Of a DNA stretch of 53,663 nucleotides, positions 3,811 through 21,844 are shown in pieces. The notes beneath the pieces were generated by a model. That model saw nothing but the letters and a program-made list of their open reading frames with translations. It was not told the DNA's origin and did no database searches. Source of the DNA: Campylobacteraceae bacterium (GTDB lineage Bacteria; Campylobacterota; Campylobacteria; Campylobacterales; Sulfurovaceae); the NCBI GenBank assembly GCA_027014605.1, contig JALWDJ010000006.1, forward strand, positions 1 to 53,663, given 5' to 3'. The stretch's first letter is position 1, and each line of letters starts with the position of its first letter. Both the position numbers and the translations under genes were made by a program.

Positions 3811-3895
3811 TGGTGCGGATGAGAGGACTCGAACCTCCACGCCGTGAAGCACTAGATCCTAAGTCTAGCGTGTATACCAATTTCACCACATCCGC
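3811..3895 (-). tRNA. tRNA-Leu (anticodon UAG)
   Basis: An 85-base tRNA read on the minus strand, with the 7-base acceptor stem starting GCGGATG, a long variable arm as expected for a class II leucine tRNA, the T loop GGTTCGAGTCC and an encoded CCA end. The anticodon loop is CTTAGGA, giving anticodon UAG, which reads CUA. It is the last of five tRNAs in the operon. Confidence 0.96.
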
Positions 3896-3910
3896 ATAAA
3901 ATATAATAAG

Positions 3911-3987
3911 TGGCACACCCGTCAGGATTCGAACCTGAGACCGCCCGCTTAGAAGGCGGGTGCTCTATCCAGCTGAGCTACGAGTGC
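3911..3987 (-). tRNA. tRNA-Arg (anticodon UCU)
   Basis: A 77-base tRNA on the minus strand with acceptor stem GCACTCG, T loop GGTTCGAATCC and encoded CCA. The anticodon stem-loop CCCGC-CTTCTAA-GCGGG gives anticodon UCU, which reads AGA and AGG. AGA is the dominant arginine codon in the neighbouring genes, so this is probably the main arginine tRNA. Confidence 0.96.
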
Positions 3988-4010
3988 AACAATAAAATAA
4001 TTAAATCAAA

Positions 4011-4087
4011 TGGCACGCTAGAGAGGACTTGAACCCCTAACCCTCAGATCCGAAGTCTGATGCTCTATCCAATTGAGCCACTAGCGC
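4011..4087 (-). tRNA. tRNA-Arg (anticodon UCG)
   Basis: A 77-base tRNA on the minus strand with acceptor stem GCGCTAG and encoded CCA. The anticodon loop CTTCGGA between TCAGA and TCTGA gives anticodon UCG, reading CGA and CGG. It sits 23 bases upstream (in transcription sense) of the other arginine tRNA. Confidence 0.95.
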
Positions 4088-4113
4088 TTCTTCATCTCAG
4101 GTTATCCTACCAA

Positions 4114-4190
4114 TGGGGTAGGCGACGGGACTCGAACCCGCGACACTCTGTGCCACAAACAGATGCTCTACCAACTGAACTACGCCTACC
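4114..4190 (-). tRNA. tRNA-His (anticodon GUG)
   Basis: A 77-base tRNA on the minus strand with encoded CCA. The anticodon loop TTGTGGC gives GUG. The 5' end has the extra G (position -1) facing a C discriminator base, the identity element used by histidyl-tRNA synthetase, which supports both the call and the 5' boundary. Confidence 0.96.
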
Positions 4191-4231
4191 ATTAAATCTT
4201 TGATTTAACTATCATATTTTTTAAATATCAA

Positions 4232-4308
4232 TGGTCGGAGTGAAAGGACTCGAACCTTCGACCCCCTGGTCCCAAACCAGGTGCGCTACCAGACTGCGCT
4301 ACACTCCG
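4232..4308 (-). tRNA. tRNA-Pro (anticodon UGG)
   Basis: A 77-base tRNA on the minus strand with acceptor stem CGGAGTG and encoded CCA. The anticodon loop TTTGGGA between CCTGG and CCAGG gives UGG. It is the first tRNA after the promoter at 4349-4377. Confidence 0.96.
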
Positions 4309-18915: not shown

Positions 18916-18921
18916 TATAGT
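18916..18921 (+). promoter_or_regulatory. Likely -10 box for the leu leader transcript
   Basis: TATAGT preceded by TG at 18913-18914 makes an extended -10 type sequence, with T runs further upstream (18886-18900). Transcription would start near 18928, giving about 22 bases before the leader peptide ATG. Confidence 0.45.
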
Positions 18922-18949
18922 TATAAAAACTAATTATAGGAGAGATACT

Positions 18950-19018
18950 ATGCAAAATATTATTAAAAAAAATAGATACATTCAGGTTAAATCTCTCCTG
19001 CTACTTCTAACACTCTAA
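18950..19018 (+). CDS. leuL: Leucine-rich leader peptide upstream of leuA
   Basis: A 22-codon ORF with a strong binding site (AGGAGAG, 18938-18944), ending 118 bases before leuA. The peptide ends in S-L-L-L-L-L-T-L: five consecutive leucines encoded by CTC, CTG, CTA, CTT and CTA, then Thr and a sixth leucine (CTC). CTC and CTG are rare in this AT-rich genome, so the run looks selected for leucyl-tRNA sensing. The binding site AGGAGAGAT can pair perfectly over nine bases with ATCTCTCCT (18991-18999), which spans the Ser and first Leu codons, so translation of the leader and its RNA folding are linked. No clear intrinsic terminator follows, so the mechanism is open. The name follows the E. coli convention by function. 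Confidence 0.75.
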   Translation: MQNIIKKNRYIQVKSLLLLLTL

Positions 19019-19136
19019 TACCACAATTTTACACTACAATTAGCAAATAATACTTTCTAATATATCTACTTTTAGATAAAATTAGATACTAAATTTACAT
19101 AAATAATTTTATGTTTATATATAACAAGGGAAATTT

Positions 19137-20696
19137 ATGAATATAGATACAATTAAAATATTTGATACAACTTTAAGAGATGGAGAGCAGAGTCCAGGTG
19201 CTTCCATGAATACAGAAGAAAAAATCCAAATTGCTATTCAGTTAGAAAAACTAGGAGTCGATATTATAGAAGCAGGATTTGCTGCAGCTAGTCCAGGTGA
19301 TTTTGATGCAATTTCAAAGATAGCTAGTAGAGTAAGAAATTCAACAATCTGTTCTCTAGCTAGAGCAGTTGAAAATGATATAAAATTAGCAGGTGAAGCG
19401 ATTGCTAAAGCTAAAAATAGAAGGATACATACATTTATTGCAACTAGTCCAATACATATGAAGTATAAGTTAAAAATGAGTCCAGATGAGGTAATTAAAA
19501 GAGCAGTTAGCTCAGTAGAGTATGCCAAAAGTTTTACTGATGATATTGAGTTTAGTTGTGAAGATGCAGGAAGAAGTGATATTGAGTTTTTAAAAGAGAT
19601 AAGTGATGCAGTTATAGAGGTAGGTGCAACAACTATTAATCTACCAGATACAGTTGGATTTAGAATGCCAAGTGAAATTGGAGAGATGATTAGAAAAATG
19701 TACCAACATATAGGTAATAGAGCTATTATATCGGTACATAACCATAATGATTTAGGTTTAGGTGTAGCTAACTCTTTAGAGGCTATTATTAATGGAGCTA
19801 GACAGATTGAGTGTACTATTAATGGATTGGGAGAGAGAGCAGGAAATGCCTCTTTAGAGGAGATTGTGATGATATTAAAGACTAGAAGAGATATATTTTC
19901 TAATTTTAAAACAAATATCAATACAAAAGAGATATATCCAACTAGCAGACTAATAGCAAATATTACAGGAATTGAGCCTCAACCAAATAAGGCTATTGTT
20001 GGAAAGAATGCTTTTGCTCATGAGAGTGGAATACATCAAGATGGAATGTTAAAAAATAGAGAGACTTATGAGATTATAACTCCTGCTGATATAGGTTTAG
20101 ATATAAATGATACTTTAGTATTAGGTAAACACTCTGGTAGAGCAGCATTTAAAGATAAACTTATTAAATTAGGATTTAATTTAGAAGATAGAGCATTAAA
20201 TAGTTCATTTGAGAGATTTAAGATATTAGCAGATAAGAAAAAAGATATATATGATGATGATTTAAGAGCCATTGTTACTAATGAAATGACAAAAGCTACT
20301 CAAATCTTTGAGTTAATATCACTTCAGATAATGAACTGTAGTAGTGGAGTTGCAAGTTCAACTATTGCTATTAAAAAAGATAATCATGAGATGATAGATG
20401 CTAATATTGGAGAGGGAAGTGTTGATGCCATATTTAAGACTATTGATAGAATTTCAGGTTATGAGGGAAGACTTATGGATTATAAAGTAACCTCTGTTAG
20501 CAAGGGAAAAGATGCTTTAGCAAATGTAACAGTAAAGGTTAAATTTAATGAAAATGAACCTGCTATTATTGGACATGGATTAAATATAGATACTATGTTA
20601 GCTAGTGCTAGAGCATATATAAGTGCTTTAAATAGCTATTTAAGCATGGAGGGAATGCTTAAAATTAGAGATATATCTAATAAAGAGACGGTATAG
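19137..20696 (+). CDS. leuA: 2-isopropylmalate synthase
   Basis: A 519-residue cytoplasmic enzyme that condenses acetyl-CoA with 2-oxoisovalerate, the first step of leucine synthesis. The catalytic barrel shows [12 protein letters not shown] at the N terminus (metal-binding Asp), [15 protein letters not shown] (about residue 200, metal histidines) and [12 protein letters not shown] (about 290). The C-terminal regulatory domain from about residue 390 includes [12 protein letters not shown] and [13 protein letters not shown], where leucine binds in feedback inhibition. It is preceded by the leucine-rich leader peptide and followed after two bases by namZ. Full length and typical. Its regulation is probably double: allosteric and through the leader. 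Confidence 0.96.
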
Positions 20697-20698
20697 AG

Positions 20699-21844
20699 AT
20701 GAAGAGAATAATTATATTTTTTATACTTCTATTAGGGTTGCTTAATGCAGATATAGAGGTTGGTGCAGAAAATTTTAGTGAATATATACCTCTACTTAAA
20801 TCAAAGAGAGTAGGAGTTGTAGTAAATCAATCATCTTTAGTAAAAGGGGAACATCTAATAGATGTTCTTCTTAGAAAAAAGATAAATATTATTAAGATAT
20901 TTGCTCCAGAGCATGGATTTAGAGGTAGTGCTGATGCAGGAGAGAGAGTTAAAAATGGAAAAGATAGTGCTACAGGACTACCAATCATATCTCTTTATGG
21001 AAAACATAAAAAGCCAACTTCTAATGATTTAAAAGATATTGATATAATGGTATTTGATATTCAAGATGTAGGAGTAAGATTTTATACATATCTCTCAACT
21101 CTTCACTATATTATGGAAGCAACTGCTAAAGCTCATATCCCATTAATTCTATTAGATAGACCAAATCCAAATGGAGCAAGAGTTGATGGAGAGATACTAA
21201 ATTTTAAATATAAATCTTTTGTAGGATTGCACCCTGTACCAATACTATATGGTATGACAATAGGAGAGTATGCTATGATGATAAATGGAGAGGGGTGGCT
21301 TGATGGAAATTTAAAGGCTGATTTAAAAGTTATTCCAATAAAAAACTATTCTCACAACTCTTTTTACTATCTACCTATTAAACCCTCACCAAATCTACCA
21401 AATGAGCTATCTATATATCTATATCCATCATTAGCTCTATTTGAAGGGACTAGATTTTCAGTTGGAAGAGGAACTAATATGCAGTTTCAAGTATATGGAA
21501 ATCCTCTATATAAAAAGAGAAATTTTAGTTTTAGACCAGTCTCAATGGAGGGGGCAAAACACCCTAAATTTGAGGGAAAACTCTGCTATGGTGTGGACTT
21601 AAGAGATACATATATAAATTTAAATAGAGGTATAAATTTAAATTATTTAATAGATGCCTATAAAAACTATCCATATAAAAATAAATTCTTTTTAAAAAAT
21701 AGATTTTTTGATAAATTGGCAGGAAGTAATCGACTGCGTAAGCAGATACGAGCAGGAATGACTCCTAAAGAGATTAAAAAGAGTTGGGAGAGAGGATTAA
21801 ATGAGTTTAAAAAGATAAGAAAAAACTATCTTATATACAATTAG
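20699..21844 (+). CDS. namZ: Exo-beta-N-acetylmuramidase NamZ-like (DUF1343)
   Basis: A 381-residue exported protein of the DUF1343 family. NamZ of Bacillus subtilis, a family member, removes N-acetylmuramic acid from the non-reducing end of peptidoglycan fragments. A signal peptide covers about residues 1-18. Family motifs are RVGVVVNQSS, IFAPEHGFRG (about residue 70), DIQDVGVRFYTYLST (about 121-135), DRPNPNGARVDGEI and FEGTRFSVGRGT (about 250). It begins two bases after leuA and ends ten bases before an amidase gene, so it is transcribed with leuA. Its role with the amidase is likely turnover or salvage of cell wall; the substrate specificity is taken from the family. Confidence 0.87.
   Translation: MKRIIIFFILLLGLLNADIEVGAENFSEYIPLLKSKRVGVVVNQSSLVKGEHLIDVLLRKKINIIKIFAPEHGFRGSADAGERVKNGKDSATGLPIISLYGKHKKPTSNDLKDIDIMVFDIQDVGVRFYTYLSTLHYIMEATAKAHIPLILLDRPNPNGARVDGEILNFKYKSFVGLHPVPILYGMTIGEYAMMINGEGWLDGNLKADLKVIPIKNYSHNSFYYLPIKPSPNLPNELSIYLYPSLALFEGTRFSVGRGTNMQFQVYGNPLYKKRNFSFRPVSMEGAKHPKFEGKLCYGVDLRDTYINLNRGINLNYLIDAYKNYPYKNKFFLKNRFFDKLAGSNRLRKQIRAGMTPKEIKKSWERGLNEFKKIRKNYLIYN

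Follow-up and report, generated by a model that had tools for sequence, protein, structure and literature searches.

Leucine codons of the leuL leader upstream of leuA as a predicted lock on the leader's own Shine-Dalgarno sequence in Campylobacterales

What does a short leader ORF accomplish when the very leucine codons by which it could sense leucine are also able to pair with the Shine-Dalgarno (SD) sequence that recruits its own ribosomes? This question is raised by contig JALWDJ010000006.1 of a Campylobacteraceae bacterium, whose first 53,663 nucleotides (the whole stretch of DNA that was analysed, hereafter the window) carry such an ORF, leuL, upstream of leuA. Leaders of this type, known as LeuL, have so far been regarded as ordinary attenuators.

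The gene downstream, leuA (19137-20696, plus strand), was assigned by homology and by its conserved LeuA columns and encodes a 2-isopropylmalate synthase of 519 aa. Among the matches listed, its best named relatives belong to Sulfurovum sp. and to a Campylobacterales MAG (77-78% identity), which would suggest a Sulfurovum-like organism, and a contig search for LeuA relatives returned at least five loci from Campylobacterota, with Sulfurovum sp. at 78%. No leuBCD genes lie behind leuA in the window; the ORF that begins 3 nt past its stop codon (20699-21844, same strand) is unrelated. The known RNA families found in the window were confined to five tRNAs, their genes clustered on the minus strand at 3814-4308, with no match above chance at the leader; the same search at the leaders of ten relatives found no match other than one tRNA in a flank.

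The leader ORF and its distribution

The leuL ORF (18950-19018, plus strand) comprises 22 codons, is preceded by the SD sequence AGGAG and lies 118 nt before leuA. Its 22-aa peptide, MQNIIKKNRYIQVKSLLLLLTL, ends in SLLLLLTL exactly where and as the initial annotation had described it, with codons 16-20 reading CTC, CTG, CTA, CTT and CTA and codon 22, past a threonine, reading CTC. The same annotation had called attention to rare leucine codons, which is true of CTC (3.2% of leucine codons in window genes) and CTG (1.1%), whereas CTA (21%) and CTT (20%) are ordinary here, TTA accounting for 50% and TTG for 4%. The window leader thus has the attributes by which LeuL-type leaders are recognized, namely an ORF of 20-35 aa that is located ahead of leuA and equipped with an SD, and several C-terminal leucine codons, rare ones among them. 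A consensus scan places a probable -10 box, TATAGT, at 18916-18921 (plus strand), from which transcription of leuL would be expected to start near 18928; in relatives from the same genus TATACT, TATAAT or TATAGT occupies the same spot ahead of the leader SD.

Regions upstream of leuA were taken from 60 relatives and from 219 Campylobacterales genomes, and they yielded 125 candidate leaders, or 118 once chance ORFs had been removed. These 118 leuL leaders, which precede leuA in about 15 Campylobacterales families, establish that the ORF and its leucine run are conserved in relatives; the proposal of a leucine leader peptide has therefore withstood the comparison that could have overturned it, and the type itself was already known as LeuL. 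In most of the 118, the leucine codons are predicted to sequester the leader's own SD. The leader is retained in families f13 and f18 as well, though its SD pairing is weak there, and no leader was found in the members examined of f14, f15 and f17, the sole candidate in f15 being a chance ORF. Within the genus of the window, seven members (L008, L016, L018, L020, L021, L025 and L047) possess leuA without leuL, a case of the control region being lost or replaced inside one genus. At several loci from different families (L028, L029, L038, L046 and similar ones) a phosphatidyltransferase-like gene, pssA-like as judged by eye, runs straight into leuA, and this arrangement occurs with or without leuL in between.

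Pairing of the leucine codons with the leader's own SD

The SD region of leuL, AGGAGAGAT (18938-18946, plus strand), forms the 5' arm of a predicted helix whose 3' arm, the anti-SD ATCTCTCCT (18991-18999, plus strand), spans the last base of Lys14, the codons Ser15 and Leu16, and the first two bases of Leu17. As noted initially, the two arms are exactly complementary over all nine bases. It had also been suggested that folding onto the leucine codons would hide the SD, and this idea has gained weight, since the helix belongs to the predicted minimum free energy (MFE) fold and covaries between genera. In the leader transcript 18926-19021 the MFE fold, in which AGGAGAGAU pairs with AUCUCUCCU, has -13.4 kcal/mol (z -2.38; 3 of 200 shuffles were equally good). 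The pairing energy between SD and ORF amounts to -15.5 kcal/mol for leuL versus -5.3 +- 2.2 kcal/mol for 45 other window genes (the best of them reaching -12.8), and the pattern of SD, loop and leucine codons occurs a single time in the 1.98 Mb genome.

How much of this pairing comes free? Pairs of CTY-CTN codons complement AGGAG by nature, so that an SD match as such carries little weight. For the window leader, synonymous versions average -9.9 kcal/mol and 3% of them match the observed value; those of the leaders at large average about -10 kcal/mol, and in f1 synonymous shuffles still reach a pairing probability of 0.84. The nine-base length of the helix is moreover peculiar to this genome; what relatives conserve is AGGAG(A/T/G) opposite (T/A/C)CTYCT, with variable extensions. 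It could be argued, then, that the pairing is a by-product of adjacent CTN codons resembling an anti-SD while all SDs are alike, the leucine codons alone doing the work. The lack of a significant SD:Leu covariation signal inside the window's genus and the leaders of f13 and f18 would fit such an account as well.

Comparisons between genera speak against it. When SD and leucine regions were mismatched between genera, pairing lost 1.2 kcal/mol; the advantage of cognate pairs, with relatedness controlled only partly by taking one leader per genus or per family, had a p of about 0.001 per genus and of 0.04-0.08 per family. In a fixed register, pairing past the AGGAG core extended further than in mismatched sets (p about 0.001 by genus and 0.04-0.05 by family), and a simple count over four positions past the core gave p 0.02 and 0.11-0.13, respectively, so that the family-level tests are marginal throughout (p about 0.04-0.13). 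Just beyond the SD core, the first base pair is A-U in 73 of 116 leaders, U-A in 8 and G-C in 4; with one leader per genus, 26 of 35 are Watson-Crick pairs as opposed to 17 expected. A covariation score computed from 43 hand-picked rows (all leaders having been used for the register and first-pair tests) was 0.155 versus 0.111 +- 0.013 in shuffles, and was best at slide 0. The predicted probability that the SD pairs with the last 13 codons is 0.96 in the window's family, 0.99 in f20 and 0.92 in f8, and over 35 genera SD sequestration exceeds that of synonymous shuffles (Wilcoxon p 0.0002). Finally, long helices of differing sequence recur, with 11 pairs in L141 and L144, 10 in L022 and 9 in L027, the last with its register displaced by one codon. 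Because covariation extends past the SD core and past the leucine codons, because cognate pairing beats mismatched pairing and because these long helices differ in sequence, we regard the by-product account as unlikely. These comparisons support the view that selection has kept the helix of SD and leucine codons across genera, although the leaders of f13 and f18, in which pairing is slight, imply that the lock is not essential everywhere.

The spacer between leuL and leuA

If the leader can close its own SD, by what route might its state be conveyed to leuA? The spacer holds a terminator-like hairpin (19097-19122, plus strand) of the form ACATAAA-TAAT-TTTATGT with the T-rich tail TTATATAT, 22 nt before the leuA start. 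Hairpins of the window's genus sit 20-35 nt before leuA, and their arms vary by species while staying complementary (ACATAAA, ACATGAG, AGTATAG, ATATATCTA, ACGTAC and ACACC). Over 29 leader-bearing relatives, whose members are not fully independent, the hairpin beats shuffles with a Fisher p of 2e-9; the anchor was misplaced for L015 and L023 when the hairpins were compiled. Of six leaderless genomes five lack it, the hairpin of the sixth, L008, being unrelated and its tail poor, and this co-occurrence suggests that hairpin and leader function jointly. The initial annotation had seen no good terminator here; it overlooked a conserved hairpin with a T-rich tail, but its judgement is understandable, as the window's own version is AT-rich and its tail poor.

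A hairpin before leuA in this genus, together with leucine codons at the leader's end, some of them rare, naturally brings to mind classical attenuation, in which stalling at these codons would favour an antiterminator over the hairpin and SD pairing would be incidental; precisely this kind of control was proposed for Campylobacter jejuni by Porcelli et al. (PMC3847290). The antiterminator that it calls for does not emerge from the comparison, however. Pairing of the leader or early spacer with the hairpin region is as good in mismatched as in cognate combinations (-17.48 and -17.46 kcal/mol; p 0.51), and in the window an antiterminator would reach -7.7 kcal/mol versus -11.8 kcal/mol for the hairpins. 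A ribosome on the leucine codons would, besides, cover the anti-SD arm and not the competitor of an antiterminator, and in most other families the spacer, about 55-110 nt long, has no terminator-like hairpin. With no covarying antiterminator found, the anatomy of the leader is unlike that of a classical attenuator, and attenuation of this kind does not strike us as a likely explanation.

Could the leucine codons act instead on translation of leuA, as in erm-type systems? Here they would alternatively pair with the SD of leuA (AAGGG, 19126-19130, plus strand), and a stalled ribosome would set this SD free. A pairing of 4-5 bases between the AAGG within it and CCUU/UCCU of the leader is indeed feasible and amounts to -6.5 kcal/mol in the window. 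Across the leaders, by contrast, the leuA SD does not covary with the leucine codons, which show no cognate preference for it (p about 0.75), and the mean energy is only about -5.4 kcal/mol. Masking of the leuA SD by the leader was rejected on these grounds, which makes translational attenuation highly improbable and leaves the suggestion of translational control, made initially, unsupported as far as the SD of leuA is concerned.

The other option raised at the outset, termination by Rho, fares better. The first 50 nt after the leuL stop codon contain 10 C and 1 G, and the stretch 19019-19055 (plus strand) is a C-rich, G-poor candidate for Rho loading. The C/G ratio of the spacer is 10:1 in the window and mostly 2-11 in the families, against 1.05 for the window's remaining intergenic regions; past the stop codon, C abounds and G is scarce in almost every family. 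A C-rich, G-poor, unstructured stretch downstream of the uORF and a rho gene in the same genome, both present here, are compatible with Rho control without proving it; judged from spacer composition and the rho gene, Rho control of leuA is plausible.

Between this stretch and the hairpin lies a dyad, UCUAAU..AUUAGA with an inner stem (19056-19086, plus strand), recognized by folding and by alignment of relatives. Its 3' half includes TAAAAT (19077-19082, plus strand), which could be the -10 box of a second promoter for leuA. This half (TAnAAT) is better kept than the 5' half and occurs in leaderless genomes too, and may therefore be leuA's own -10 box, so that there may be a second promoter directly before leuA, one that could let leuA bypass the leader. 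Is leuA then expressed mainly from its own promoter, leuL being a separate short RNA ended by hairpins and of little effect in the genus? The retention of TAnAAT in leader-bearing and leaderless members alike, and its enrichment in the spacers of several families, would agree with this, as would the finding that in C. jejuni the leuL RNA terminates soon past the leuL stop codon (PMC3847290). Spacers of f20 and f4, however, show no TAnAAT enrichment although their leuL is well kept, and the hairpin beside leuA accompanies the leader. An expression of leuA so largely independent of the leader appears quite unlikely to us.

A conserved peptide motif in other families

Directly before the leucine run, the LeuL peptides of f4, f9, f10, f18, f20 and f22 carry the motif LPKIE[IT][KR]N. 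The 51 leaders concerned (L029, L033, L030, L040, L037, L210 and 45 other leuL loci) encode it with 44 DNA spellings, and between families pS is 0.94 and pN 0.04. Elsewhere in the genomes searched, LPKIEIKN gave two chance-level hits only, being otherwise always located upstream of leuA. The window's family is without this motif and lacks any visible constraint at the peptide level over the ten codons before the leucine run (pN 0.60, pS 0.65). In those other families the LeuL peptide itself is thus under strong selection, which suggests, as far as substitution patterns can tell, a function of the nascent peptide. Since a pure codon sensor needs no fixed peptide, an arrest peptide is possible there, and these families may use one.

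A self-locking leader

The pattern that emerges, with no antiterminator, no switch at the leuA SD and a hairpin that accompanies the leader, leads us to lean slightly towards LeuL as a leucine-responsive leader whose control codons double as the anti-SD of the same leader. The short leuL RNA of C. jejuni, which stops soon past the leuL stop codon (PMC3847290), and the translation of leuL there (PMC11955535) also speak for this reading. Sequence comparison supports the ORF, the leucine run, and the helix that buries the SD together with its covariation; the subsequent steps are inferred. During transcription, the SD would leave RNA polymerase ahead of the leucine codons, so that a first ribosome could load. 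With charged tRNA-Leu plentiful, this ribosome would finish and depart, whereupon the leucine codons would re-pair with the SD; the locked leader would then stay free of ribosomes, and transcription would stop before leuA, either through Rho acting on the C-rich, G-poor spacer or, in the window's genus, also or alternatively at the hairpin before leuA. When leucine runs short, a ribosome parked on the leucine codons would mask the anti-SD and thereby keep the SD accessible to more ribosomes; by occupying the stretch beside the stop codon, it would allow more RNA polymerases to reach leuA. Basal expression of leuA might come from the second promoter directly before it.

A more far-reaching version is conceivable, in which self-locking leuL operates throughout Campylobacterales with leucine codons as both sensor and lock, control of leuA proceeds via Rho rather than an antiterminator, and LPKIE[IT][KR]N serves six families as a leucine-dependent arrest peptide. 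Taken as a whole, this version is tentative and rather doubtful.

Relationship to known systems

Like the enterobacterial leuL and trpL attenuators, the leader carries control codons for the amino acid of the pathway in a peptide encoded before the operon. It differs from them in that no covarying antiterminator is found and that the control codons themselves pair with the leader SD. The distal trp leader RNA reportedly pairs with the trpL ribosome binding site and so limits leader synthesis. As for the presumed output, TnaC exemplifies how Rho-dependent termination downstream may be decided by where a ribosome stands on a short ORF ahead of it. The toiL uORF of E. coli toiL-topAI can do likewise (PMC12121999). 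The C-rich, G-poor spacer resembles both systems and gives Rho a putative role at leuA, but what toiL masks is the SD belonging to the gene downstream (PMC12121999), whereas the window leader would mask its own.

The closest relative is epsilonproteobacterial LeuL, which has been described ahead of leuA in C. jejuni and in the majority of Epsilonproteobacteria that possess leucine genes (PMC3847290); in C. jejuni it is translated (PMC11955535). The C. jejuni leuL-leuABCD locus shares with the window the short ORF with an SD of its own and C-terminal leucine codons, some of them rare; its own promoter has a probable counterpart in the window. What sets the two apart? Main-text passages of the C. 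jejuni papers (PMC3847290, PMC11955535) mention neither a helix between SD and leucine codons nor a conserved peptide, the proposed antitermination is presented there without its parts being displayed (PMC3847290), and the window peptide is devoid of the LPKIEIKN motif of several other leuL families. The leader itself is therefore known, while an SD that locks itself, and the conservation of this feature, appear to be undescribed in the main texts that could be searched. What is widely kept in the RNA is the helix in which the control codons pair with the SD of their own leader, and the comparison opens the mechanism of leucine control to direct tests in laboratory strains of Campylobacterota.
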